The notes beneath the pieces are model-generated. The model made no database searches and was not told the DNA's origin. It saw nothing but the letters and a program-made list of their open reading frames with translations. The position numbers and the translations under genes are program-made. From assembly GCA_015232395.1 (NCBI GenBank), contig JADFZT010000024.1, positions 1 to 58,951 of the forward strand: a stretch of DNA of 58,951 nt, in the 5' to 3' direction. Source of the DNA: Magnetococcales bacterium (lineage in GTDB: Bacteria > Pseudomonadota > Magnetococcia > Magnetococcales > JADFZT01). Positions 298 to 51,523 of this stretch are shown piece after piece (within the stretch, counting starts at the first letter, position 1; every line of letters begins with the position of its first letter).

Positions 298-1233
298 TCA
301 GGATCCGGGTATCATGCCGCTTGGTGGGCCGGGGGTGATGCCTTGGAAGAACTGCTTGAAGAGTGAACCCTCCTGCACCTCCCGGCGCAGAGCGCGTAGC
401 TGGGATTTGGAGATCAGCTCTCCCCCCTGCATCATGCCTATGGCCCACTTATAGAACATGCCGTTGGGAAAGTTGTGTCCCAGCACCACCGCATAGTTGC
501 GGGCTTCTTCCTTAAGCCCCAGCTTGAAGGAGCCCAACGCCAGGCTGAAGAGCGCCTCCTCCACAAAGGGGGTGCCGTTATATTCGTCATCATCCACCAC
601 CCCGGAAAAACGCTTGATGGCGGCGATATATTCCGACCGGTCCAAATAATACCGCCCCACCACCATCTCCTGCTCCGCCAGACGAAAGCGGCAGAGCACC
701 AACATCCGATTGGCTTCCCAGGCATAGTCGCTGTCCGGAAAACGGGTGATCAGCTCCTTGAAGGCGACAATCGCCTCCCGGGTGCGGCCTTGATCCCGAT
801 GGGCGGTGGAAATTTGCTGATAAAAGGCCAGCCCACGCATATAATAGGCATAGGTGACGTGGCGATTGCGGGGATGCAGGCGAATATATCGCCGGGTCGC
901 AGCCAGGGCCTCTTCATACTCCCCCAGCTGATAGTTGGCATAGATGAGATTGAGCTGGGCGCGGGTGGCCCAGGGGGAAAAGGGATGTTTGCGATCCAAC
1001 TCCTCAAAGCGCGCCACAGCGGTTTTGTATTTATCCGCTTTGATCGCCTCCACCCCCTGCTGATAGAGCACTTCCGGTGGATCGGTGGACTCCTCCCGAT
1101 TTTCCTGGGTGCCGCTGCATCCGGTAAAAACCAGCAGAAGGCCGATCACCAAAAAGTGCTGGATCACCTTCAGCCCTGACCAATCAGACGGATTCACCGA
1201 TGGGGTGCGCCGGGCGGCCGAATCAAGAATCAT
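298..1233 (-). CDS. bamD: Outer membrane assembly lipoprotein BamD
   Basis: BamD is the essential lipoprotein partner of BamA in the machine that inserts beta-barrel proteins into the outer membrane. The 311-aa product has an N-terminal hydrophobic stretch ending in a lipobox (VFTGC, Cys about 39), then TPR-like helical repeats starting around LYQQGVEAI. Motifs typical of the family follow: KYKTAVARFEELDRKHPFSPWA, the YAYYMRGLAFY segment, and FPDSDYAWEANRM with the RLAEQEMVVGRYY helix. Length is slightly above the usual 245-290 aa. The ATG start has AGAGG about 11 bases upstream; a GTG at codon 23 (1167) would give a signal peptide of more normal length. The gene lies about 100 bp downstream of hpnE on the same strand, with a hairpin just after its stop. 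Confidence 0.9.
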   Translation of the reverse strand: MILDSAARRTPSVNPSDWSGLKVIQHFLVIGLLLVFTGCSGTQENREESTDPPEVLYQQGVEAIKADKYKTAVARFEELDRKHPFSPWATRAQLNLIYANYQLGEYEEALAATRRYIRLHPRNRHVTYAYYMRGLAFYQQISTAHRDQGRTREAIVAFKELITRFPDSDYAWEANRMLVLCRFRLAEQEMVVGRYYLDRSEYIAAIKRFSGVVDDDEYNGTPFVEEALFSLALGSFKLGLKEEARNYAVVLGHNFPNGMFYKWAIGMMQGGELISKSQLRALRREVQEGSLFKQFFQGITPGPPSGMIPGS

Positions 1234-1338
1234 GGGCTAAAAACCTCTTTATAAAGGGATTTTCCTGCTCTTGGGCCACGGCCACATTCCGGGCTTTGGG
1301 GGGATACCCCGAGTCCATTGCCGAGCTTTCAGGGAAAC

Positions 1339-2745
1339 TTACACAATTTTAGCGCCGGTGGCCAATGCGTTGAAGGTTTTTTTAGCCGCCAGGGTGGCGC
1401 TCGCCACACTCCCCTCCAGGGTGGCGGGCAATCCCGTATCGGTCCAATCTCCAGCGATCCATAGATTTTTCCAGGGGGTAACAATCCCTGGTCGCAGTGG
1501 GGTGGTGCCGGGTCTGGCGGCAAAGGTGGCCCGATGCTCTTTGATCACCCGAAGTTTTTGGGCTGGAACCCCTGCCAGTTCCGGCAACACCTGGGCGATC
1601 TCCCCCTGAACCATCCGGGAGAGCCTGGCCGATGACCAGCGGGCCTCCTCATAAGCGCCACTCATGACAACGCTCACCCCCTGGCTCATCGATGCCCCGT
1701 CCACACCACTTCCCGAAAAGAGCCATTGGCTCTGCATGAAGGGTAGCCCCACCAGAGGAGCAGGCAAGGAAACGGGCTCGGGATAGCGCAGGTGGAGGGA
1801 GACGATGGGGGCGGTTTGCAACCCCTGCCAACCGGAGTGGGCAGCCCATTGGGGAAGCAAGCGACTGAGGGCATGAGGGGGGAGCGTGCTGATGATGGGT
1901 ACACTTCCCCGGGTGGCAATCACCCCCCGTTGGGTCAAAACCTGATCGATCCCCTGCCCCTCACTGACCACCCCTTTGACCCGGCAGCGGTTGATCACAT
2001 GCCCCCCTCGTTGGGAAATAAAGCGAACAGCCGGATCAATCAATATCTCCGACAGGGGGGCGGTAGGGATCAGGGTTTGGGCATGGTGGCGGCTGCCGTA
2101 AAAAAGATCTTTCAAAACCCGGGCAAAAAGAGCGGCATTGGCTGTTTCGGGGGGCTCGTTGAGGGTGGCCAGGCAGAGAGGATACCAGAGCCAGTGGTTG
2201 AGGGTTTCGCTGGTTTGGCCGTGGCGACTGAGCCACTGGCTGACGGAAATCGCCTCCCAGCGGTTTGGATCACCCCACAAAGCTGGCCCGATTCTGAGTG
2301 CAGCCAAGAGATCCCTCTTGGGCAAGGGGCCAAAGCGGGTGAGACCGGCAAACAGATGAATCGGAGCGGGCAGGTTGGGGCAGCTCAGTTGATGAAATCC
2401 CTGCTCCCGGGTCCAATAGCTCACCGACACCCCCTCTGAGCGGTGCAGCTTTGCGCGGGTGCCGAGCTTATCCAGATAGGCCAGGGTGTGGTGATAGGCC
2501 CCGACAAGCAGATGGGGGCCGTTATCCAGGGTTTCGCCAAAGGTGGGATCATAAAAAGAGCGTGCCCGCCCCCCGGATGTTGGGGCCGCCTCCAGGATTA
2601 ATGGCTTCCTCCCCGCCTCCACCAGAGCCACCCCAGCCGCCAGCCCTGCGACCCCCGCGCCCAAAATCAGAACATCGAACGCGGGAAAATGTTGGCTGGA
2701 ACGGGCCTTCTCAGCTGGAAGAATTCTTTCAGCCGAGGGGGGCAT
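1339..2745 (-). CDS. hpnE: Squalene-forming FAD-dependent oxidoreductase HpnE
   Basis: HpnE reduces hydroxysqualene to squalene in the three-step HpnC-HpnD-HpnE route used by many bacteria in place of a single squalene synthase. The 468-aa protein opens with a Rossmann dinucleotide-binding motif (LILGAGVAGLAAG, about 26-39) and an acidic strand end (PLILEA). A C-terminal FAD-contact motif NLWIAGDWTDTGLPATLEG (about 430-450) is typical of the phytoene-desaturase/amine-oxidase superfamily. The ATG overlaps the 3' end of hpnD by 17 bases, so translation is probably coupled. Together with the two upstream trans-prenyltransferase homologues the assignment is firm. No squalene-hopene cyclase is present in the window. 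Confidence 0.9.
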   Translation of the reverse strand: MPPSAERILPAEKARSSQHFPAFDVLILGAGVAGLAAGVALVEAGRKPLILEAAPTSGGRARSFYDPTFGETLDNGPHLLVGAYHHTLAYLDKLGTRAKLHRSEGVSVSYWTREQGFHQLSCPNLPAPIHLFAGLTRFGPLPKRDLLAALRIGPALWGDPNRWEAISVSQWLSRHGQTSETLNHWLWYPLCLATLNEPPETANAALFARVLKDLFYGSRHHAQTLIPTAPLSEILIDPAVRFISQRGGHVINRCRVKGVVSEGQGIDQVLTQRGVIATRGSVPIISTLPPHALSRLLPQWAAHSGWQGLQTAPIVSLHLRYPEPVSLPAPLVGLPFMQSQWLFSGSGVDGASMSQGVSVVMSGAYEEARWSSARLSRMVQGEIAQVLPELAGVPAQKLRVIKEHRATFAARPGTTPLRPGIVTPWKNLWIAGDWTDTGLPATLEGSVASATLAAKKTFNALATGAKIV

Positions 2746-30021: not shown

Positions 30022-31137
30022 TTAAAGTACCCGACGGGGATAGGAGCCCAGAAGTTTGGTGTCGAGTTCGGGAATGCCCCGAAGTTCGTCCAGAGCAGCC
30101 GCCACCTGGGGATCCTGCCGGTGCCCTTGAAAATCGATAAAGAAAAGATATTCCCAGGCTTTTTTCCGGGCGGGCCGGGATTCGATGGTGGTGAGATTGA
30201 CTTCCCGCTGGGCAAAAATACCCAACACCCGATGCAAAAAACCGGGTTTGTCCGGGAAGGAGAGCATCAGGCTGGTGCGATCCTCTCCCGTGCGTTCAGT
30301 ATCCTGGCGACCAATCACCAAAAAACGATTACCGTGGTCGGGTTGATCGCCAATCTGACTGGAAAGGACGTTCAAACCAAAATGATCCGCAGCATAAACC
30401 CCGGCAATGGCCGCCGCACCCTTATGTTCCCGAGCCTTGCGGGCCGCCTTGGCTGTGGAGGAGACCACCTCTACCTGAACATCCGGGAGATGACGCTCCA
30501 ACCAGTGGCGGCATTGGGATTGGGCCAGGGGATGACAATAGAGCACCTTGATTTCATTGAGATCGGTCTCTTGGGAGAGGAGTGTGGGGGCCACCGGCAC
30601 ATAGACCTCACCACATATTTTCAGAGGTGAATCCACAAAACGATCCAAGGTGTGGCTCACCATCCCCTCACTGGAATTTTCCACCGGCACTACTCCATAA
30701 TCGGCCCGGGCCGACTCCACTTCGAGAAACAGCTCATCGATGGAAGAGGCCGCAGCAAAGGTGCAGGAAGAACCGAATTGCTTTTTGGCGGCTTGATGGG
30801 TAAAAGTCGCTTCCGGCCCCAGATAGACCACGGTCAGCTGCTGCTCCAGGTTGAGGCAGGCGGAGATGATTTCACGAAAAATCCGGTGCATCCCTTCTGT
30901 GGGAAAGGGGCCTTGGTGGCGCTCTTCCAAGCGGCGGTGAATCTGGGCTTCCCGGGCGGGTCGATAGAAGAGGGGATCTGCGGACTTGCCCTTGGCCTCC
31001 CCCACTTTCATTACCCAGTGGGCGCGTTCCATGAGCAGGTCGTGGATCTGGTTATCGATCCGATCAATGGATTGCCGGCACTCCGCGAGAATCGACTCAA
31101 GGGCCGAACCGGATTTACTTGGTTTTTCGGCGCTCAC
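30022..31137 (-). CDS. pheA: Chorismate mutase/prephenate dehydratase
   Basis: The bifunctional P-protein makes phenylpyruvate from chorismate. Of 371 aa, about 15-100 is an AroQ chorismate mutase (ECRQSIDRIDNQIHDLLMERAHWVMKVGEAKG, then YRPAREAQIHRRLEE). The prephenate dehydratase domain follows (VVYLGPEATFTHQAAKKQFG; YGVVPVENSSEGMVSHTLDRF with the catalytic Thr-Arg-Phe variant H-T-L-D-R-F). The C-terminal ACT domain (TSLMLSFPDKPGFLHRVLGIFAQREVNLTTIESRP) binds phenylalanine for feedback control. It opens the aromatic-to-rpsA operon. Confidence 0.95.
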   Translation of the reverse strand: MSAEKPSKSGSALESILAECRQSIDRIDNQIHDLLMERAHWVMKVGEAKGKSADPLFYRPAREAQIHRRLEERHQGPFPTEGMHRIFREIISACLNLEQQLTVVYLGPEATFTHQAAKKQFGSSCTFAAASSIDELFLEVESARADYGVVPVENSSEGMVSHTLDRFVDSPLKICGEVYVPVAPTLLSQETDLNEIKVLYCHPLAQSQCRHWLERHLPDVQVEVVSSTAKAARKAREHKGAAAIAGVYAADHFGLNVLSSQIGDQPDHGNRFLVIGRQDTERTGEDRTSLMLSFPDKPGFLHRVLGIFAQREVNLTTIESRPARKKAWEYLFFIDFQGHRQDPQVAAALDELRGIPELDTKLLGSYPRRVL

Positions 31138-31474: not shown

Positions 31475-32986
31475 ATGCCCCACACCTACCGGTTGATTCT
31501 CCTCCTGGGTCTGCTCACCCTACCCCTCTCCCCTCTGCCCACCCAAGCGGCTGACGATCCCCCCTCCCCTAAGAAACGCCCCCACATCTTCTGGATTCTG
31601 GTGGACACCCTGCGCCTGGATCACACCTCACTCCCGGGATATGGGCGAAACACCACCCCCCATATAAAAGCCTTTGCCCAAGAGGCCACCCTGTTTGAAA
31701 GTGCCAAGAGCCAAGCCTCCTGGACCATTCCCGCAGTGGCTTCCCTGCTCACCGGGCAGTTTCCCTTCAACCACGGCATCCTCACCCGTCCCAGTCAACA
31801 ACCGGAACAGCAACGCCTCACCGGCACCCTCATTCAAACCGTAAAAGAGGCGGGGGGATATCACGGGGTATCGATCCAAAGAAACCACATGATCGAACAT
31901 TTGACTGGAGATTTTACCGAACACCATCCCCAGACCGACTGGCAAAAAAATTCGGACGGGGACGCGGTGACAGAGGCCCTGGAGGTGGTCAAAAAACATG
32001 TGGGAACCGAAAAACCCTCCCCCGCTCCCACCCCCGCCTCCCCCCTGCTACTCTTCCTGGGCCTCTTCAACCCCCACTGGCCCTATGTCTGGTCCCTTCA
32101 GGAGGGGGAGTGGTTTGAACGCTATCTCACCGACCAGACATTTCAGCAGAGCCCCTCCCGAAACATCCAGCGATTTCCCTTTCCAGGAGGAGAACTCACC
32201 CCAAGCCATCTCCCCGAAAAGCTCCGAAAGCGCTTTCCAACCGCCGAAACCCTCTACAATCCAAATCAGCCTGGCTACCAAAAACCCAGCCCCTTTTTCC
32301 AACGAATCAAACACCAGGGGGGCTATCGGGATGAACGCCTCTATATTGCCGCCTATGACGCCGAAATCCGCTACACCGATCAACAGATTGGACGTTTTCT
32401 GAATGATCTCAAAAAAAACGCCCTCTATGACAACGCCCTGATCATCGTCATGGCCGACCACGGAGAGCTGATGAACGAACAGGACACCACCCCATTCCAC
32501 CACGGCTCCCACCTCTATAACGCCGAACTGGCCGTTCCCCTGATGATCAAATTTCCCCATCAGACCCAACAGCAAGTGGTCACCCCCACCATCCGCTCCA
32601 TGGATCTTTGGCCTACCTTGCTGGACTATCTCGCCCTGCCCCATCCCCCGGTGGACGGCCAAAGTCTGCTCCCGCTCATCCAGGGCAAAGAGGTCGATTT
32701 TGACCAACGCCCGGTCATCTCCTACACCGAAGCCGAAGGCCCCAAAATTTCTCTCTACCGGGAGGGCCATCATCTGATCCATACCCTCCGGAACCGGGAG
32801 AGCCGACTTTACCGGCAAGATCTGGATCCCCTGGAGCAAAATAATTTGGCCGCAGACCAACCCCGATGGGTGGAGGCACTCACAACCTTTCTCTGCCAAC
32901 ACCACTGCCCCCCATGGCTGACGACCACAGAAAAACAAACTCCAGAAATGAACCCAACAAGACCAACAAACTTTTCTAATTATTGA
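31475..32986 (+). CDS. Exported sulfatase-fold enzyme with Thr nucleophile
   Basis: A 503-aa alkaline-phosphatase-superfamily protein with a signal peptide (LILLLGLLTLPLSPLPTQA). Metal-site motifs are ILVDTLRLDH (Asp44), VMADHGELMNE (Asp328, His329) and FHHGSHLYNAELAVPLMIKFP. The nucleophile motif aligning with Cys-x-Pro-x-Arg of sulfatases reads TIPAVASLLTG, putting Thr84 at the formylglycine position and Val for the Arg. Thr nucleophiles are known in LtaS, EptA and OpgB-type phosphotransferases and in many 'sulfatase' homologues of unknown substrate. A phosphoester transfer or hydrolysis is therefore at least as likely as sulfate removal. Two genes downstream lies a close paralogue (35146), with a radical SAM gene between. 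No catalytic test can be inferred from sequence alone. Confidence 0.82.
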   Translation: MPHTYRLILLLGLLTLPLSPLPTQAADDPPSPKKRPHIFWILVDTLRLDHTSLPGYGRNTTPHIKAFAQEATLFESAKSQASWTIPAVASLLTGQFPFNHGILTRPSQQPEQQRLTGTLIQTVKEAGGYHGVSIQRNHMIEHLTGDFTEHHPQTDWQKNSDGDAVTEALEVVKKHVGTEKPSPAPTPASPLLLFLGLFNPHWPYVWSLQEGEWFERYLTDQTFQQSPSRNIQRFPFPGGELTPSHLPEKLRKRFPTAETLYNPNQPGYQKPSPFFQRIKHQGGYRDERLYIAAYDAEIRYTDQQIGRFLNDLKKNALYDNALIIVMADHGELMNEQDTTPFHHGSHLYNAELAVPLMIKFPHQTQQQVVTPTIRSMDLWPTLLDYLALPHPPVDGQSLLPLIQGKEVDFDQRPVISYTEAEGPKISLYREGHHLIHTLRNRESRLYRQDLDPLEQNNLAADQPRWVEALTTFLCQHHCPPWLTTTEKQTPEMNPTRPTNFSNY

Positions 32987-33036
32987 CCCTGGAAACAATG
33001 CCACCTAAATTTTGATCGCTATTTGGTCGAATTAAG

Positions 33037-33065
33037 AAGACAATTGAACGATTCATACATATAAT
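33037..33065 (+). promoter_or_regulatory. Candidate sigma-70 promoter for the radical SAM gene
   Basis: AAGACA (33037-33042), 17-base spacer, then a perfect TATAAT (33060-33065), in an unusually AT-rich stretch 70 bases upstream of the start at 33135. The -35 matches four of six consensus bases. It implies the radical SAM gene can be transcribed separately from the upstream sulfatase. Confidence 0.5.
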
Positions 33066-33134
33066 TTTCCCTCAATCAATTCAGCAAATCATCCGAACCA
33101 ATCCCGTACCAACCTTTCCCAAACGAACAAATCA

Positions 33135-34424
33135 ATGCCTCAGCAAACGGACACACATAAACTGCAAACCACCGAAAGCAAAGAGGTCACTTTGGTCGAC
33201 CCAAAAAACGCAGACGCCATCCTCTACCAGACCGTCTGGGATCGAATGGATCCTGATGATACGGACCTGCCCTTGGTGTTGGATTATCCCCCACGGATGG
33301 CTTGGCTCTCCCTGACGACCCAGTGCAACCTGACTTGCACCCACTGTGTTCGCTACACCAACAAGCTTCTGAATATCGAAAAACCGGACATTGAAATGAG
33401 TGATCCGCTCTTTGAGCAGATCAAGAAGGAACTCATGCCTGGTCTGGAAGGGTGCATTTTGGGGGGGAACAATTTTGGTGAACAGCTGATTTCAAAGAAG
33501 TTTCTCCAATTTTCAAGTCTGACCGGCCAATCCGACACCCTCACTGAAATCATCACCAACGGTACCGCCCTGACCCGGGAACGGGCGCAATATATTGTGG
33601 ATAACGACATCCAGGTTCGGCTTTCTCTGGAAGGGGCCACTGAACAAACCTACACCATGACCCGGGGTGCCCGTTTTTCCAAACTCTACGAGCAGCTCAA
33701 ATACTATTCCCAACTGCTCAAAGATAATCCGAAGAGCAAATCCCAGCTGATCTTTAACTTTGTCATGTTTGCCGGCGGCGCCCGGGATCTGCCCAAAGTG
33801 ATTGAGCTGGCAGCCGAACTGGGTTTCTTGGGCGTGACGGTCATTCTTTTCTATCCGCGCAACGAATTTCAGCGTTTTCAGTCCATGCTCTACCATCGTT
33901 CGCTTTTTGAAGAGGTGTACCGCGAAAGCCAGGCCCTGGCGGAAAAGCATCAAGTCATTCTCAACATGCCCAAGCCCCTGGCCATGGGCCGGATGGAAGC
34001 CACCCTCGACCCCTCAGAAACACAACAGAGCGAAACCGCCCCGCAAAAACTCTATTGCGGCCTCCCCTGGTCTGCCATTTCCATTGATGCCGACGGCAAG
34101 GTCTACCCCTGCTGCTCCTCCAAGGTGATGGGCAACCTGAACGACAATTCATTGATGGAAATATGGAATAACAAAGAATATCAAAAACTTCGCAAGGGAA
34201 TATTGACCGGACGCAAAATGGCCATGATCTGCAAGGGGTGTCAGTGGGCACGCTGGGGAAAAGAGACGGTCATGACCGAAACCGCCATCATGCGCTCCAT
34301 CGGGCTGTTCGACAGCATTCCAGCCATGGAACTCAGCAAATTATTGGTCTTGAAACTGCTCTCCAAACTTCCTGGTCAAGCCAAAATCAAACAGATATTA
34401 AAAGCCATCCACTCCCGAATATAG
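33135..34424 (+). CDS. Radical SAM/SPASM protein between two sulfatase-fold genes
   Basis: A 429-aa cytosolic iron-sulfur enzyme. The radical SAM cluster motif is CNLTCTHC (Cys64, 68, 71), followed by a GGNNFGE segment, the TNGTALT motif and the RLSLEGATEQTY strand. A C-terminal SPASM region supplies Cys308, Cys326, Cys327, Cys366 and Cys369 (YCGLPW, YPCCSSK, ICKGC) for auxiliary Fe-S binding. SPASM enzymes modify peptides, proteins or small metabolites, and anaerobic sulfatase-maturating enzymes belong here. However, the flanking sulfatase-fold proteins have Thr at the maturation site, so another substrate is likely. The last 50 residues form a basic helical tail. No precursor peptide gene was recognised nearby. 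Confidence 0.85.
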   Translation: MPQQTDTHKLQTTESKEVTLVDPKNADAILYQTVWDRMDPDDTDLPLVLDYPPRMAWLSLTTQCNLTCTHCVRYTNKLLNIEKPDIEMSDPLFEQIKKELMPGLEGCILGGNNFGEQLISKKFLQFSSLTGQSDTLTEIITNGTALTRERAQYIVDNDIQVRLSLEGATEQTYTMTRGARFSKLYEQLKYYSQLLKDNPKSKSQLIFNFVMFAGGARDLPKVIELAAELGFLGVTVILFYPRNEFQRFQSMLYHRSLFEEVYRESQALAEKHQVILNMPKPLAMGRMEATLDPSETQQSETAPQKLYCGLPWSAISIDADGKVYPCCSSKVMGNLNDNSLMEIWNNKEYQKLRKGILTGRKMAMICKGCQWARWGKETVMTETAIMRSIGLFDSIPAMELSKLLVLKLLSKLPGQAKIKQILKAIHSRI

Positions 34425-34509
34425 TTTATCATCCAGACTGGGACGTTGAGGCAGAACTTGGCTGAGCCGTTGAGACAGGGGGGCAATAGATTCCCCTTAT
34501 ACCAACGCT

Positions 34510-34753
34510 TATAGCAGTTCTATCTCAAAATTGAACATTCTTCCCTGACTCGTCATCCCCGCGAAGGCGGGGATCCAGGGAGCTGATGATTGCTCTCAAG
34601 GAAAAACCAAATCTTCAAGAAAGGCCGGTATTTTGCTGAAAGTGATACAAGATTTTGGAAAGGTTCGCGCCAGCCCCCCTGGATTCCCGCATTCGCGGGA
34701 ATGACAGAAAAAGTACAGCGGCATATGTCCAATTCTTGATTTGAATTGCTATA
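34510..34753. mobile_element. MITE-like element with terminal inverted repeats
   Basis: A 244-base noncoding element. Outer ends TATAGCAGTTC and GAATTGCTATA start imperfect inverted repeats of about 29 bases that continue through an ATTGRACAT block. Inside lie the facing blocks CATCCCCGCGAAGGCGGGGA (34554-34573) and its partner ATTCCCGCATTCGCGGGAAT (34683-34702), each itself a hairpin. Related copies are at 57823-58001 and, inverted and partial, at 37988-38047. No transposase is inside, so it would be non-autonomous. Confidence 0.65.
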
Positions 34754-35072
34754 TCCACCTTGTTTTTGCTTTTCAAGTGAGAACCCCGCCTCCCACCTGA
34801 CTCTTCTCACCTTTGGCAAATGCGTTTGAAAAACCAAACAAACAGCAAAAGGCAAGGGAATCGTTCGGCGGGCCTCCTTTCCCAAGCACCCAAAGGCGGT
34901 CAGTCACCCTCCACCCACAACCACCCCGCCCGATGCCAATCAAGCCGGAAACCAAAGAAAAACCGATCAAAGAGCCAAAAATAGTTGCACATTGGGAAAC
35001 AAGTTGGTGTTAGAATGTGACAGGCTGGAGAATAGATCAATTGCACCACCCTTTGTGCAGTCAAATTGACGA

Positions 35073-35101
35073 TTGACAAGTTCCCTGAAAAAACATCTAC
35101 A
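35073..35101 (+). promoter_or_regulatory. Candidate promoter for the second sulfatase
   Basis: A perfect TTGACA (35073-35078), 17-base spacer, then TCTACA (35096-35101), a weak -10 with three of six consensus bases, 45 bases upstream of the start at 35146. The pairing is only suggestive. Confidence 0.3.
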
Positions 35102-35145
35102 GATTTTCTCTCAAGCGTAGCCATCTGAATAAAGGCTTAAAAATC

Positions 35146-36714
35146 ATGAAGATTGACAATCGGCTCACACCGCTGCTGCTATTGCTGGCGCTACCCCTGC
35201 TGCTGATGCCGGGTGGGAATAGCTTTGCAGAGACCGAGTCAGCCCCCCCTGTGCTGTGGGAGGTCAATCCCCTGACAGTCACCTCCAACACGCCTGTGAA
35301 AGATACCGACGCCACTTTGGTTGCGGATAAATTTGGTCGCCTGGACAGCTCCGCTGGCAACCCGGATCAGGGTGGGGGAAATCCCCGACCCGGGGCGGAG
35401 CTGCCACCGGAACTCATTCCACCCGACCCTCAAAATTTACCCAATATTTTCATGATCCTGGTGGACACCCTGCGCTACGACCACACCAACATGGGTGGTT
35501 ATGTGCGCAATACCACGCCCAACATGGAAGAATTTTCCGAGACCGCCTACGTCTTCAAAAATGCCAAAAGCCAAGCTTCCTGGACCATTCCGGCCACCGC
35601 CTCGATCCTCTACGGACTCTACCCTCAAAACCACGGTATCAACGCCAAACCGGACACCCGTCCTCTGGAAGATCCGGCCACGGGAACCCTCATCACCCAG
35701 TTTCAAAATTTGGGGGGCTATCACGCCATCTCCATCCAGAGAAACTCCAACATCGAATATCTCATCGGTGATTTTGACGAACACTATTCCCATGGCCGTT
35801 GGTATCTCCACTCCGATGGCAGCGCCGTAATAGAAGCGATGAATCGGGCTCAAGGCATCTCTCCCAGGGATAAAACCTTCATGTTTCTAGGGCTCTTCAG
35901 TCCCCATTGGCCCTATAACTTTTCCATCGATGACACCGACTATTTTGAAGAGTTTTTGATTGATGAAACCTACCGGAATACCGGCGAAAAGCTGATCGAA
36001 GCCACCTCATTTGCCTCCCCTGCGGGGGAACTGACCTACATGGATATTCCGGAAAACATCCGAGAAGGTTTCTCCCTTCCACCAGATGGTGAAGACGCCT
36101 ACCGGGATGCCCGCATCTATGTAGCCGCCTACGATGCCGAAGTGAAATATGCCGATGAACAGATCGGAGTTTTCCTGGATAGGCTGAAGGAGCTGGATCT
36201 CTATGACGACGCCATTGTCATCATCATGGCGGATCACGGCGAAATCATGAGCGAACAGGAGCAACCGTTCCACCACGGGAACCACCTTTTCGACTCTGAG
36301 CTGGCGGTGCCTCTGATGATCAAATTCCCCAATCAAAATCGTCAGGAAACAGTCCTCTCCTCTGTTCGTTCAGTGGATGTCTTGCCGACCCTCCTGGATT
36401 ATCTCAACATCAACACTACCAAGGAGATCGACGGCAAAACCCTCTATCCCCTGCTCAAGGGTGATACAATCGATTTTGCCGAGCGCCCCCTCTTTTCCTA
36501 CATTGAAACAGTCGGCACCAAAATGTCCCTCTACAGCTCGGAAATGCATCTGATAGAACATGCCCATTCGGGTGAGGGGCTCCTGTTCAACGTCGACAAT
36601 GATCCATCTGAACAGACCGATCTGGCCGGGGTCAAACCAATACAGCTGGAAACCCTCCAGGAATCCATCTATGAGATTCATTGCCCAGCGGTTTCGGATA
36701 AGTGTGGGGAATGA
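35146..36714 (+). CDS. Exported sulfatase-fold enzyme with Thr nucleophile, paralogue
   Basis: A 522-aa paralogue of the gene at 31475. It has a signal peptide (LLLLALPLLLMPGGNSFA) and a Pro/Gly-rich linker of about 70 residues absent in the first copy. The same active-site set follows: ILVDTLRYDH (Asp107), TIPATASILYG with Thr147 at the formylglycine position, IMADHGEIMSE and FHHGNHLFDSELAVPLMIKFP. The blocks NAKSQASWTIPA, GLFSPHWPY and RSVDVLPTLLDYL closely track those of the first copy, so the two arose by duplication. The Ser in SASW is two residues from the Thr and does not fit the Ser/Cys-x-Pro-x-Arg motif. AAAGG lies about 10 bases before the ATG. Confidence 0.82.
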   Translation: MKIDNRLTPLLLLLALPLLLMPGGNSFAETESAPPVLWEVNPLTVTSNTPVKDTDATLVADKFGRLDSSAGNPDQGGGNPRPGAELPPELIPPDPQNLPNIFMILVDTLRYDHTNMGGYVRNTTPNMEEFSETAYVFKNAKSQASWTIPATASILYGLYPQNHGINAKPDTRPLEDPATGTLITQFQNLGGYHAISIQRNSNIEYLIGDFDEHYSHGRWYLHSDGSAVIEAMNRAQGISPRDKTFMFLGLFSPHWPYNFSIDDTDYFEEFLIDETYRNTGEKLIEATSFASPAGELTYMDIPENIREGFSLPPDGEDAYRDARIYVAAYDAEVKYADEQIGVFLDRLKELDLYDDAIVIIMADHGEIMSEQEQPFHHGNHLFDSELAVPLMIKFPNQNRQETVLSSVRSVDVLPTLLDYLNINTTKEIDGKTLYPLLKGDTIDFAERPLFSYIETVGTKMSLYSSEMHLIEHAHSGEGLLFNVDNDPSEQTDLAGVKPIQLETLQESIYEIHCPAVSDKCGE

Positions 36715-41603: not shown

Positions 41604-43967
41604 TCAGGTGGGAACCCGGGCAGCCAGGGGGCGATATTGGAGACGCAGGTACATCTCCAGATAGCGCTCAAGCCCCTCCCGCTCGGATCGATAGAGCCAT
41701 TTGCCAAAACCGTGCAGGGCGGTCAGGGTCAAGGTCTTGCTGGCATAGATTTCCCAGGTGTAGCGGCTCTGCACCCGCTCCAAGGCCCCTTGGGAAATCC
41801 GCTGCCACTCCGATGGATCCCCCTGGCAGCGTTCCAAAAAGTCAGCGATCAGATCTGCTGAAGCGGCCCCGTCAGCCGGATCCACATGATAGCCCGACTC
41901 CCCGGCTACAATCACCTCCTTGGGACCACCGTTGCAGGTGGCAAAAGTGGGCAGACCCGTGCTCATCGCTTCCACCACCGTCAGGCCAAAGGCCTCATAC
42001 CAGGCAGGCTGAATGAAAGCCCCCCGGCTATCGGCCACCACCCGATAGATCTCCCCATTCAAGCGCCGGTCGGTGCTGGCCTTGAGCCAGCGCACCGAAT
42101 CATCCAGACCGTACTGATCCATCAGCCGGTGCATGGTCAAAATCTGCTCCCGCTCCTCCCGATCACTGGAAGCCTCCACATCCACAAAGCCGCCGATCAC
42201 CACCAGATTGGCCAACTTCTGCAACCGGGGATTCCCCCCATACCACTCCAGCAGTCCCGTCAGGTTTTTAATCTTGTCCAACCGGGCCATGGTAAAAAGC
42301 AGGGGTTTGTTGCGATCCTTGAGCACCCCCCGGCGGCCATGGTGGGGCTCGCTGCCGTAGATCATATCCTCGATGGTGTCGCTAAACTCCCCCAGTCGGC
42401 CTTCGGTGTTGTCATAGGGGAAAAACAGCTCCGGGTTGACCCCGGGGGAGACGATGTTGAACTTGGGATTGTGGACATCGATACCGGAAACCACCCGCTG
42501 GAGCCCAGGCATGGTGAACGCCATGTGGCTCTCATACTGCCCCACCCGCTGCTCATCCCCGGCGATCTCCTGATAGGTGCTGGCGATGATAAAGTCAGCG
42601 GAGTTCATGCCGATGAGATCAACGCTGAACTGGGATGAAAAGTGGTAGTGGTCGTCCTGATCCTGCCAATAGAGGGCGGAATTGAAATATTTGGTCTTCT
42701 CCAAGGCGTGGGCGATGGTGGTGAGGGTGGCACCCAGCCTCCGGGCGACCAGCGCTGCGGTGAGGTTGCCGTCGGAATAGTTGCCGATGATGAGATCAGC
42801 CCCCCCCAGGCGCTCCAAAATTTCCTTTTCCGAATCCCTCGCAAAGCGCTCCATAAAGGGCCACAGATCAAAGCGGGAGATCCAGTGGGGCACCGCCTCG
42901 CCGGAAGGATAGCGGAAGGGAATCCGCAAAATCACCGCCCGCTCCGTACCCCTGACGGTCTCCATGGGCCGATCGCAACCGGTCCCCTGGGCATCGGGAA
43001 TCAGCCGGGTGATCACCAAAATCCGTGGCTCCTCCTTGCGTCCCTGGGCCACAAGGCGGCGTTTCATCTCCATTTCCAGACCCCGGACCTGATCCAGGAT
43101 ATAGACCACCTGCCCTCCGGTATCGGGCAAACCCAGCACATCATCCTGACCAAAATAGCCGTGGGGGGTGAAAACCACGATGGTGGAGATGGGGACGGCC
43201 CGCTCCAAAAAGGTCTGTAGTGTTTCAGCATCAGGTTGACGCAATAACCGGGAGAGAAGCCCCATGGTCTCCCGCACCCGGGCGGTGTCCGCCCCCCAAC
43301 CGGCCCCAAAACCAAACTTGCCCAAAGAGCTGTTAAAGCCAGGTGCCCCCCCCTCAGCTGTACTCTTTTCCAGGATCGCCTCGGCCTTGGCCAAAGCCTC
43401 CTGCAAGGTGGCCAGATCCGGGATGAGTTTGGGATCGATCATCGGTAGATGACCCGTAGCGGTGCGGCGGCTGATAAATTCCAACAGCGCCTGGCCACAG
43501 ATGTGTGGATCTTCCGCAAACCGATTGGCCAAAATCCGCCCCATCGCCTCCACACCGTTGCCGATGCCAGCCGGTCCCTCACCAGGGGGATAGAAACGGG
43601 TAAAGGGGGAAAAATCGAGTTCCAGAATCTCTTCTTCCCCGTCTCCCCGGCTACCCGGCACCTGACCTTCCTTGATTTCCAGATAAGCGAGGGTCGAAAT
43701 CTCCTCCCTCCCGCCACGACCCAGGTCGTAGCGGAAAAAACGCCACCGGGCCACCTCGGGACGGGTCGATAAGGCGATCCATTCCGGATGAATCAAAGCC
43801 TCCTGCACCTGACCAAAAGCGGTATCCATACAGAGGACATCCGGGGAGACCTCCTGGTGGCTGCTGCGATAGGTTTCCTGCCACGCCAATAGTTCATCCC
43901 TGAGCAATACCGTCTTATCATGATGACCGAGCTGTTTCATCAGCTCGAAAATGGGTTCAGTCGTCAC
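41604..43967 (-). CDS. Sucrose synthase
   Basis: Reversibly makes sucrose and NDP from NDP-glucose and fructose; in bacteria it often works as a cleavage enzyme. From the GTG at 43967 it is 787 aa, near the usual 790-810. After N-terminal regulatory regions the GT-B core has [69 protein letters not shown], and the C-terminal donor site [28 protein letters not shown] (E-x7-E). The start overlaps the SPS stop by 11 bases with GGAGGAACAG upstream; the frame reaches 44243 but only through SPS. The fructokinase-SPS-SuSy order argues for a sucrose cycle. Confidence 0.93.
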
Positions 43968-46140
43968 GTCCCTGTTCCTCCTCCGGAATCCGGATGTTCC
44001 CCAAAAAATGGTAGTGGTTGATCCCTTCCAGGATGCCCCAGGCGTGGGGCTCCTCGGCAAAATAGATGCGGGGTTGGCCTTGCAGATGATCCAGCTCTGA
44101 ATGGTGGTTGCCCACCACCAGCCCCAGCATGTTTTCCTTGAGCATTTCCTCGTCATTCCCCGAATCCCCCGCCACCAAAATGCGCTCCAGGGGCAGCCCC
44201 CATTTGATAGCCAGATGGGTGATGGCCAACCCCTTGGAAGCACGCAGGGGGAGCAAATCCAAAAATTCCTGGTGGGAAAAAATCACCCGGGCGTGGAGAT
44301 CCCGCTTGCGCAAATATTGTAAAATTTTCTTTTTGGTGGGGACTTTCTCCGAATCGACAAAATAGCTGATTTTGTGGGGGCCCTGCTCCTCTTTGGGCTG
44401 GGGGCGCAGACCGGGCAGCTCTGCCATCGCCTCCAGCACCCCCTCCCGGTCCCAACGATAGTCGATATGCTTGGCCCAACCGGTATCCTCGACCATCCCC
44501 TGACGATAGTGAATGACACTGCCCACAGAGGTGATCATAAAATCCGGGACCGGCACGTTCCACTCTTTGAGAACCGCCAGAGTCCCTTTGAGGTTACGCC
44601 CGGTGGCTACTCCAAACCCCACCTTATCCCCCCCCTCCACCAGGATATTGAGCAAGGCACACAACCCCTTGCGATCCCCGATCAGGGTGTTGTCGATATC
44701 GCAAACCAGTAGCCTGTCAGCGGTGGGAAGGCTGTATTTACGGGTAATCTGCGAGGGAAACTTGCGGCTCTCTTCCCGTTTCAGGGCCTGCTCCATCACC
44801 CGCAGATATTTTTCCACATGTCCCTGCCAAGAGTAGTGCTTGTGGGCTCCCTGCACGCCACTCCGAGACCAACGCCGCCACTGAAGACGATGGCTCAAGG
44901 CATCCACCAGCGCCGATTGCATGCCCGCCACATCCAGGGGGTCGATGAGCAAGCCATTTTTGCAGTTGGCGATAATCTCGTTGGGGCCGCCGTCGTTGGT
45001 GGCTACCAGGGGCACCCCACTGGCAGCGGCTTCGATCAGGGTCAACCCAAAAGGTTCGGTCAAAGCGGGGTTGACGAACACCCCCCGACTTTTGGCAGCC
45101 AGCTGATAGAGATCCGGCACATCATCGGCTTCATGCTCCTTGGGCAGGGCCAGCTTGCCATAAAGATCATAGCGGTCCATCAGCAGAAGCAACCGGGTGA
45201 GCACCTCCCGGGTGCCCCGATCCATGGATTGAATATCCACCCGCTGCCCGGCCACAATCACCAGGTTGGCCAACGCCCGCAGCCGGGGGCTCTCCCCAAA
45301 AGCCCGCACCAGAGTGGCCAAATTTTTTCGCTCATCCGCCCGGGCCAGGGCCAGGATCATGGGGCGGTTGGGCTCCCGCAAAAAACGCCTCAATTTTTCC
45401 CGGATAGGGGGGTGAAAAGCCATGCGGCCCGGAGGATGAAAGCGACTGAGATCCACCCCCGGAGGAATCACCACCATGCGCCGGGGCTGGTAATCATCAT
45501 AGGCGGCATACTGCTCATCCACCTCCTGGTGGGTGGAGGTTACCACGAAAGCGGCGTTGCCGATGGCGATCTCTTCGGCCTCGATGCGCTGGCTGATGTT
45601 ATAGCGGGATTCGATGACCTCCTCACTCAAACCCTTTTCCAGAAGGCGCTCCCGCTTGACCCGCCCCAGGGAGTGGCCGGTATGCGCATGCATCACCCCC
45701 AGCAGACGAGAAAGCCGGGTTCCCACCAGGCCCGCATCGGCATAGTGGCTGTGTACCACGTCAGGGAGCCTGCCAATGGCGCGAAAATGGCGCAAGACGT
45801 TATCGGCATAGCCATCCAGGTGGGGCCAGAGGCTCTCCTTGCGCAGATAGCGCCGGGGGCCACAGGGGAGGCGAATAATCCGGCAATTGGGACCAAGCTC
45901 CTCCTCAGGTGCGGCATAGTCCGGAGAGATCCGGGCATCAAACACCTGCCGGGTGAGAAGATCCACCCGCCCCACCTTGGGATGTTGGGCCAAAGCCCGG
46001 GCCAGCTCCAAGACGTAGGTGATCTGCCCCCCGGTATCGGCATCCTTGCCCAGCTCCGGTTCCCGCCCCCGGATGAGGCCATGAATGGAGATCAGTGCAA
46101 TATAAAAAGGCTGGGGCGTGCTTGGGTCTACGTCTGCCAT
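43957..46140 (-). CDS. Sucrose-phosphate synthase fused to sucrose-phosphatase
   Basis: A 727-aa two-domain enzyme. About 1-470 is an SPS GT-B glycosyltransferase ([85 protein letters not shown]). About 475-727 is a HAD sucrose-phosphate phosphatase with nucleophile motif [10 protein letters not shown] (Asp481, Asp483), SVGSVIHY, and [26 protein letters not shown]. The intact D-x-D-x-T suggests the phosphatase is active, so sucrose can be made from UDP-glucose and fructose-6-phosphate in one polypeptide. It overlaps fructokinase by 13 bases and sucrose synthase by 11. Confidence 0.94.
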
Positions 46141-47108
46141 TGGGCCATAAATCCTTCATAAAGGGTGGGATCTGCCGGGGTGGCACCGCGCACACTGCAT
46201 ATCGCCCGGGCAAAGCCGTTGGCCCGCTCCAGGAGTTGGGGCAGAGGCCAGCCCCGGTAGAGCCCCAAAATCAACACCGCACTGAAGGCATCTCCCGCTC
46301 CCACGGTATCGATCAAGGGGGTTTCATCCGCCCCCTTCCCCCCCCCATTTTCATCACTCTGCAGCACCACATCCCCCTGGGCCAGAAAAGCCCCGTGCTC
46401 CCCCATGGTCACCGTGATCATTTGGGCACCGAAATCCACCGACAAGCGGCCCGTCAAAGCCTCCAGTCGATCCCGGGAGACCCGCTCCCCCTGGCTCTTG
46501 CCCATCTGGCCGGTGAGGGTATCCAGCTCTCCGGCATTCATCTTGACCACATCCACACCACGCAAAAGCCCCAAAAGCTGCTGCTCATCCCACCAGGGCG
46601 GACGCAGGTTGAGATCCATCATTACCGGCCCTGCCACCGCCCCACGGGCCTTGATCAGAGTCTCCCGGGAGAGGGGCGAACGGGCGATCAGGGAGCCGTG
46701 ATAAAACAGGCCACTCCCCCCCCCTGCCCCCTCCTCTTTCAGAAGAGATTCCAGTGGCGACCAATCGATAAAATCATACGCCTGCTCCGGCAGAATCGAA
46801 AAACAGGGCTGTGCCTCGGCCAAAGCCACCTCTACCCGTCCGGTGGGGTGGGCGCCATCCTGCTGCATGCCGACGGTGGTCATCCCCTGGCGGGCCATCT
46901 GTTCCAGCACCCGATCTCCCAGAGAATCCTGCCCCACCCGACTGATAAAAAGGGGGTCCAGGCCAAAACCGGCCAGATGCCAGGCCACATTGAAGGGGGC
47001 TCCCCCCAAGACTTCGATGCCATCCTCAAATTGATCAAACAATACTTCGCCGAACAGGATCGGTCGGCCCGATGGGGAAACACCCCCCTTTTGCTGCACT
47101 TCGGTCAT
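46128..47108 (-). CDS. PfkB-family fructokinase
   Basis: Phosphorylates fructose released by sucrose synthase. From the ATG at 47108 (AAGGG about 8 bases upstream) it is 326 aa, with the PfkB features ILFGEVLFDQFEDGIEVLGGAPFNVAWHLAGFG, DLNLRPPWW, NAGELDTL, and the signature 2 DTVGAGDAFSAVLILGL with the catalytic Asp in GAGD. An upstream ATG at 47165 lacks a ribosome site. It is the first gene of the sucrose operon. The substrate is assigned from the operon; other sugars cannot be excluded from sequence. Confidence 0.9.
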   Translation of the reverse strand: MTEVQQKGGVSPSGRPILFGEVLFDQFEDGIEVLGGAPFNVAWHLAGFGLDPLFISRVGQDSLGDRVLEQMARQGMTTVGMQQDGAHPTGRVEVALAEAQPCFSILPEQAYDFIDWSPLESLLKEEGAGGGSGLFYHGSLIARSPLSRETLIKARGAVAGPVMMDLNLRPPWWDEQQLLGLLRGVDVVKMNAGELDTLTGQMGKSQGERVSRDRLEALTGRLSVDFGAQMITVTMGEHGAFLAQGDVVLQSDENGGGKGADETPLIDTVGAGDAFSAVLILGLYRGWPLPQLLERANGFARAICSVRGATPADPTLYEGFMAQWQT

Positions 47109-47604
47109 CAAACATTCCCTTCCCGGCCATTCAGGCCACCCTGTCAGGCGATTAAGAGCTGACATATTGCGACAGATTCCAAGGAGCTGTCAGCCTTGAG
47201 ATATCATAAAGAAAACCGCACCCCGCTACAAACATCCCCTACTCTCTTTCACCCTTACCCAAAGGAATACCGCCGGAATCCCAAAGGCCGCCATGAGAAA
47301 AGCCTGGCTGGACAACCAACAGCCTTGGATTCACCACTTGGAGGAGGCCTGGAAGCACCTCCCAAAGGGAGGCCCTTGGCGACATTGTCGGCAATCTGCT
47401 AACTTGTTTGATGGTATTCGTTATAATAGTGACAACAATCAGTCGCATTTCCAAAAACACCAAATTTTGCCTTCCCTCATTCGGTCTCAATGAAGAGGGT
47501 ATGATTCCCTGGCAAGGAAAACAGCCACTGTGGACCGATAAAGACCACTGTCAATCATAACCAATCATGGCGCGCCCCTTCCGCAGCCGGGAAGGAACCA
47601 AAAG
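47109..47604. other. Divergent intergenic region, sucrose operon / receiver gene
   Basis: About 500 bases without a supported gene. A perfect TATAAT occurs on the plus strand at 47422-47427, but no good -35 lies 16-18 bases before it. The sucrose operon promoter should be here; I see no clear operator. Confidence 0.35.
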
Positions 47605-50731: not shown

Positions 50732-51523
50732 CTATTTGAAGGATTGCACCAGAGAACCCACCACCAACGCCCAGCCATCCACCAACACAAACAAAATCAG
50801 CTTGACCGGCATGGAAATCACCAACGGTGGCAACATCATCATACCCATGGACATGACCACACTGGCCACCACCATATCGATGATCAAAAAGGGGAGATAG
50901 ACCATGAAGCCGATCTGAAAGGCGGTCTTCAGCTCTGAAATCATGAAGGCGGGAATCACCAGCCGCAGGGGCACATCCGCTGGATTTTGCGCCTTTTCCA
51001 CGCCGGAAAGCCGCATGAAAAGCTCCAGATCCTTCTCCCGGGTCTGGCGCATCATAAAGGAGCGAATCGGCACCACAGCCCGATCCCAAGCGGTCTCTTC
51101 GTTGATCTGCTTATCCAGATAGGGCTGAATGGCGTCGTTGTTGACCCGATCAAATACCGGCCCCATCACAAAAAAGGTGATGAAAAGAGCCAGGGCAATC
51201 AGTACCTGGTTGGGGGGTTGGCCTTGGAGTCCCAAAGCCTGACGCACAAAAGACATCACCACAATCACCCGGGTAAACGAGGTGACCATGACCAGCAGGC
51301 CGGGGGCCAGGGAAAAGAGGGTGAGCAGGGCCAGAATCTGCAGGCCGATACCGACCTGCTCAGGATCAGCCTGACCGGTGACACTGCCGGTATTAAAGCT
51401 CAGTTGCGGGAGATTGACCTCAGCGGCCCAGGCGACAACGGGAGCCCCAAACAAAACAGCCAGAATGGCGACAATCGCCACCCCTGCCGTGACAACGGGA
51501 ACTCTTGCTGTCAAACGCCTCAC
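50732..51523 (-). CDS. fliP: Flagellar export protein FliP
   Basis: Core of the flagellar type III export gate, with FliQ and FliR. The 263-aa protein has a signal peptide (VPVVTAGVAIVAILAVLFGAPVVAWA) and four further hydrophobic helices. The family signatures MVTSFTRVIVVMSFVRQALGLQGQPPNQVLIALALFITFFVMGP and FMISELKTAFQIGFMVYLPFLIIDMVVASVVMSMGMMMLPP are present. It starts at a GTG overlapping the fliO stop (GTGA). FliQ and FliR do not follow within the window, so the usual fliPQR string is broken here by about 960 bases of repeats and the LysR gene. Confidence 0.96.
   Translation of the reverse strand: MRRLTARVPVVTAGVAIVAILAVLFGAPVVAWAAEVNLPQLSFNTGSVTGQADPEQVGIGLQILALLTLFSLAPGLLVMVTSFTRVIVVMSFVRQALGLQGQPPNQVLIALALFITFFVMGPVFDRVNNDAIQPYLDKQINEETAWDRAVVPIRSFMMRQTREKDLELFMRLSGVEKAQNPADVPLRLVIPAFMISELKTAFQIGFMVYLPFLIIDMVVASVVMSMGMMMLPPLVISMPVKLILFVLVDGWALVVGSLVQSFK

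Follow-up and report, generated by a model that had tools for sequence, protein, structure and literature searches.

A radical SAM/SPASM protein between two exported Thr-type PF00884 proteins: a genome-specific neighbourhood in a Magnetococcales bacterium

Layout of the locus

The window is the whole 58,951-nucleotide stretch of contig JADFZT010000024.1 (assembly GCA_015232395.1) that was analysed. It contains three open reading frames, designated S1, rSAM and S2, which together span 5.2 kb (Table 1). These frames are real, with the coordinates and lengths that an earlier, sequence-only reading of the DNA had given, and, as stated there, all of them lie on the plus strand. The flanking genes on both sides are on the minus strand. 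To the left of S1 these are rpsA, cmk, aroA, tyrA and pheA; to the right of S2 they encode a STAS-like protein and a HAD phosphatase and are followed by sucrose genes. The minus-strand sucrose cluster (41604–47165) comprises sucrose synthase, sucrose-phosphate synthase/phosphatase and a PfkB-type sugar kinase.

Table 1. Positions of the features discussed, in window coordinates.
Feature	Position	Strand	Description
S1	31475–32986	+	503 aa, exported PF00884 protein
rSAM	33135–34424	+	429 aa, cytosolic radical SAM / twitch-SPASM protein (predicted)
~243-bp repeat	34510–34753		in the rSAM–S2 gap
S2	35146–36714	+	522 aa, exported PF00884 protein
Changed gene order near pheA	30022–31137 and 298–2745		comparison with sister families

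The intergenic gaps measure 148 bp (S1–rSAM) and 721 bp (rSAM–S2). The repeat in the second gap is present in about 40 copies genome-wide (87–99% identity), has palindromic, REP-like ends (GTCATCCCCGCGAAGGCGGGGATCC ... GGATTCCCGCATTCGCGGGAATGAC) and folds far better than shuffled sequences (z −5.7). An ORF in this gap (34553–34885) overlaps the repeat. No convincing small ORF was found when the gaps were searched for a precursor peptide, and a promoter and terminator scan of the locus gave a result no better than chance.

A recent transfer of the three genes is not indicated, since their GC3 (0.63–0.65) resembles that of the neighbours. The gene order is nevertheless unlike that of sister families. 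In some of these, YfiO-like and amine-oxidase-like genes directly precede pheA, but here they are 28 kb away; in another arrangement it is fliP that directly precedes pheA, and here fliP is found at 50732–51523. Because the genes upstream of pheA in sister families lie elsewhere in the window, the three-gene stretch is a site of rearranged order.

The exported proteins and their paralogs

S1 and S2 match the PF00884 profile (5e-39 and 9e-35), carry Sec-type signal peptides as judged by eye (MPHTYRLILLLGLLTLPLSPLPTQA; MKIDNRLTPLLLLLALPLLLMPGGNSFA) and are about 46–49% identical to each other (46% over 454 aa). They are thus exported paralogs of the alkaline-phosphatase superfamily, as had been proposed, and the Cys/Ser target of sulfatases is indeed missing: Thr occupies the nucleophile position (S1, T84; S2, T147). 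It lies within the motif S-W-T-x-P/A, which is common to the five-member family described below, and Thr is the usual residue at this position in the nearest relatives as well. The predicted metal ligands are D44, D328 and H329 plus H343 in S1, and D107, D363 and H364 plus H377 in S2. D107, T147, D363 and H364 (S2 numbering) are invariant in a 16-sequence alignment, so that both proteins have the Thr together with the Asp and Asp-His metal residues expected of a Thr-nucleophile enzyme of this superfamily.

The AlphaFold model of S2 (pTM 0.78) is confident over most of the domain. In a fold search its best matches were soluble S1 sulfatases (a sulfatase class, not to be confused with protein S1) and phosphonate monoester hydrolases (PMH), and the 50 best matches included no membrane-anchored phosphotransferase. 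S1 and S2 have a signal peptide only (by eye) and score about 39 bits or less against EptA, LtaS and OpgB profiles with cut-offs of 404–1250. They share fold and PF00884 profile with FGly-dependent sulfatases but lack the Cys/Ser residue that those enzymes require within the (C/S)xPxR motif (PMC5066984).

A profile search of the host genome returned six PF00884 proteins, all with Thr at the nucleophile position. Five of them form one family with 42–61% identity: S1 and S2 together with the copies carried by contigs C57, C42 and C21. By pairwise identity S1 and S2 are each other's closest paralog (48.9%); in the tree, the five members are grouped with full support and S1, S2 and the C21 copy are left without resolution among themselves, hence the pair is not a recent tandem duplication. 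The pair is accordingly duplicated, as had been noted, in the sense of paralogy, but the duplication is old and part of a five-paralog family in which the tree leaves a sister pairing of S1 and S2 without resolution. Close copies of the family were found in none of 47 genomes of the same order. When 84,980 genomes were scanned with family patterns, 42 loci were recovered; most of their sulfatase-like proteins are 21–31% identical, and none is a close family member.

The C42 paralog is situated about 2.3 kb from a polysaccharide (sugar-transferase) cluster with WecG, Bac_transf, Wzz and Poly_export genes (L068, 53–10918), on the opposite strand and with apparent transposase fragments in between. 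The position of this one paralog suggests a link of the S1/S2 family to glycans and gives modest support to a possible common role in surface polysaccharides. On contig C57, a secreted-looking GH39/GH42-like protein with leucine-rich repeats (L067, 12823–15414) is encoded about 2.2 kb from the family member. A gene on contig C21 (L069, 8490–9407) has a product that matches delta carbonic anhydrase (E 1e-73), an enzyme class more familiar from eukaryotic algae.

As to chemistry, the equivalent Thr/acid/Asp-His metal site in MCR-1 works through a phospho-Thr (PMC5216409). From this, the invariant Thr and metal site and the fold, we infer that S1 and S2 hydrolyse or transfer phospho(di)esters. 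The Thr, activated by the metal bound to Asp and Asp-His, would attack a phospho(di)ester. By analogy with MCR-1 a phospho-Thr intermediate would form, to be hydrolysed or handed to an acceptor, presumably in the periplasm. The substrate is likely to be a phosphorylated cell-surface glycan or lipid; we came across no reported substrate for Thr-type PF00884 proteins of the S1/S2 branch.

The radical SAM protein and its relatives

The middle gene product matches the Radical_SAM (1.3e-9) and SPASM (6.8e-17) profiles and has no signal peptide as judged by eye. The SAM-cluster motif CX3CX2C is formed by C64, C68 and C71, and the SPASM region contains five cysteines (C308, C326, C327, C366, C369). 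It is therefore the cytosolic radical SAM protein with a 5-Cys SPASM region that had been described. A GG-x-N-x-GE motif is present at 110–116. Nearly all of the relatives that were checked retain the SAM-cluster cysteines and the auxiliary cysteines 308, 326, 366 and 369; C327 is an extra one that is not always kept among them. An AlphaFold model from the single sequence reached a pLDDT of 39 and was left out of the inferences.

A SPASM-type radical SAM protein adjoining PF00884 genes, with weak similarity to the anaerobic sulfatase-maturating enzyme (anSME) profile, may be taken for an anSME that oxidises the active-site residue of S1 and S2. This is highly improbable. The score of rSAM against TIGR03942 is about 38.2–39.9 bits against a cut-off of 349, which no protein of the genome reaches (best 44.3). 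The five SPASM cysteines, four of them conserved, point to a twitch protein with a single auxiliary cluster, whereas two auxiliary clusters take 7–8 cysteines. The genome has no Cys/Ser-type PF00884 protein, and the target residue in S1, S2 and their paralogs is Thr, the oxidation of which would yield a ketone rather than FGly; FGly formation from Thr has never been demonstrated (PMC5066984). The doubt raised earlier about sulfatase maturation was thus justified by the Thr, the HMM scores and the cysteine set: neither S1 nor S2 is an FGly sulfatase, and rSAM does not belong to the anSMEs. A role in defence was also rejected, matches to the viperin superfamily being weak only.

The best sequence match in the PDB is BtrN, with which the cysteine sets align. 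BtrN, a twitch enzyme, has a single Cys4 auxiliary cluster and oxidises an aminocyclitol by two electrons (PMC9012708), and rSAM shows the same combination of CX3CX2C with one predicted Cys4 auxiliary cluster. Against the twitch radical SAM family NF033640 it scores 65.4 bits, below the cut-off of 170. The best NCBIfam matches of all four rSAM family members are TIGR04317, a tungsten-enzyme maturase family (95.5 bits for rSAM), and TIGR04311 (77.8 bits). This would fit a maturase for a metalloenzyme of the tungsten or molybdenum oxidoreductase type that has nothing to do with its neighbours. However, the scores are far under the cut-offs (380 and 400), no such oxidoreductase gene was recognised nearby, and the nearest relatives with readable context are in glycan clusters, so we hold this explanation to be improbable.

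No close rSAM homologue was detected in the 47 genomes of the order, in 398 genomes of the phylum (E ≤ 1e-20), or in 84,980 genomes scanned with single-sequence peptide patterns; such scans of genome contigs use short patterns and may miss relatives. The closest relatives are G413 (34% identity, truncated at a contig end), G398 (29%, with its frame split) and G507 (at locus L181; E 9e-87 when the family alignment was used). The two nearest relatives whose surroundings can be read are in exopolysaccharide clusters: L181 is surrounded by genes for GT4 glycosyltransferases, an exosortase, an HldE-like protein and a methyltransferase, L182 by Wzz, Poly_export, Wzy_C, a flippase and glycosyltransferases. 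Lower-scoring relatives occur in mixed contexts. At L129 (96–1255) a relative has its core and SPASM parts in two ORFs in different frames, with the break at an A-rich stretch. A glycan link of rSAM is suggested by relatives at about 30% identity, with others in mixed contexts.

According to this model rSAM would be a cytosolic twitch enzyme that binds a single SAM cluster and a single predicted Cys4 auxiliary cluster. Most likely, and as in BtrN, a deoxyadenosyl radical would take hydrogen from a small-molecule or sugar precursor, an electron would pass to the auxiliary cluster, and the oxidised sugar would go into an envelope polysaccharide. The substrate could also be a peptide instead of a sugar.

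Co-occurrence, interpretation and known systems

The three genes do not travel together in the data searched. No rSAM gene lies beside the other three S1/S2 paralogs (0/3, the C21 copy being cut by a contig end on one side), no recognisable rSAM relative is near any of the 42 sulfatase-like loci fetched from the 84,980 genomes, and no sulfatase-like ORF was seen around the nearest rSAM relatives (0/19 loci). Whole-genome searches of the order, a phylum sample and other phyla did not yield the set, and neither did searches of GTDB contigs, viral contigs and plasmids. Since S1/S2-type and rSAM-type genes are found apart, an outcome that the sequence-only reading had itself named as refuting its proposal, the undescribed three-gene system suggested there is not supported; the three genes are a genome-specific neighbourhood and not a conserved system.

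Taken as a whole, we consider it probable that this neighbourhood combines secreted Thr-type phosphoester enzymes, S1 and S2, with a twitch sugar oxidoreductase, rSAM. The alternatives to this reading overlap with it and with each other, so their likelihoods need not add up to unity; those concerning chance and a functional cassette differ on a shared pathway, not on the identity of the proteins. The neighbourhood may well be due to pure chance, an explanation we rate a little short of even: an unrelated rSAM gene would have been inserted between an old S1–S2 tandem pair. The mutual closeness of S1 and S2, the repeat-rich rSAM–S2 gap and a gene order around pheA unlike that of relatives fit this, but the tree gives no resolved sister pairing of S1 and S2, and rSAM is on the same strand as both.

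A functional cassette, in which an unusual sugar or head group is produced by rSAM in the cytosol and has its phosphoester transferred, cleaved or trimmed by S1 and S2 after export, is rather unlikely. It is favoured by the bracketing of the only rSAM of its kind by two of only five paralogs, on one strand within a compact stretch of a minus-strand region, by its position where the order near pheA differs from sister families, and by some glycan context for both families. Opposed to this are the large gaps, the second one with a repeat, the three paralogs without an rSAM neighbour and the lack of co-occurrence at the 42 and 19 loci. That S1, S2 and rSAM share a surface-polysaccharide pathway is possible, and rSAM may, as the sequence-only reading proposed, act on a group that the exported enzymes handle. 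In its strongest form this would be a lineage-specific surface-glycan module, with rSAM making an unusual oxidised sugar and the five-member secreted family moving or removing its phosphoester. We regard such a module as unlikely; if true, Thr-type PF00884 proteins of this branch would, as far as known, receive their first function.

Under the preferred reading, of a genome-specific neighbourhood, the main value of the locus lies in the correction of an easy misannotation, as a radical SAM gene beside "sulfatase" genes mimics a sulfatase with its maturase. The Thr-type branch is a frequent one, as about half of the PF00884 sequences in the Pfam seed (30 of 59) have Thr at the nucleophile position according to the SulfAtlas paper (PMC5066984), and most of it is uncharacterised. 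A genome with five paralogs would therefore be a reasonable place to seek a substrate.

Among known systems, anSME and rSAM both belong to the radical SAM plus SPASM superfamily and are encoded next to PF00884 genes, but rSAM differs in its fewer auxiliary cysteines, its score far under the cut-off and a genome without a Cys/Ser target. PMH and S1 sulfatases (e.g. PDB 4UPK, 7OZ8) resemble S1 and S2 in fold, Asp plus Asp-His and solubility; they use FGly derived from Cys/Ser where proteins S1 and S2 have Thr. EptA/MCR and LtaS have the Thr nucleophile and the acid plus Asp-His metal site in common with S1 and S2 but, unlike these, are membrane-anchored, are outside the 50 best fold matches and give HMM scores far under the cut-offs. 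Thr-type "sulfatase-like" proteins of the TLPSHAS branch (Planctomycetota, Acidobacteriota and others) share with S1 and S2 the fold, the Thr at the nucleophile position and the motifs DTxRxD, T-x-P/A-x-x-S, ADHGE/SDHGE and PF/xHG, although they are only about 25–30% identical and, among those fetched, often longer; proteins S1 and S2, by contrast, are short and soluble, with FLGLFxPHWPY. For rSAM the counterpart is BtrN, in which the SAM CX3CX2C and the four auxiliary-cluster cysteines align; rSAM is longer, has the additional Cys327 and carries the GGxNxGE motif in place of GEPL.
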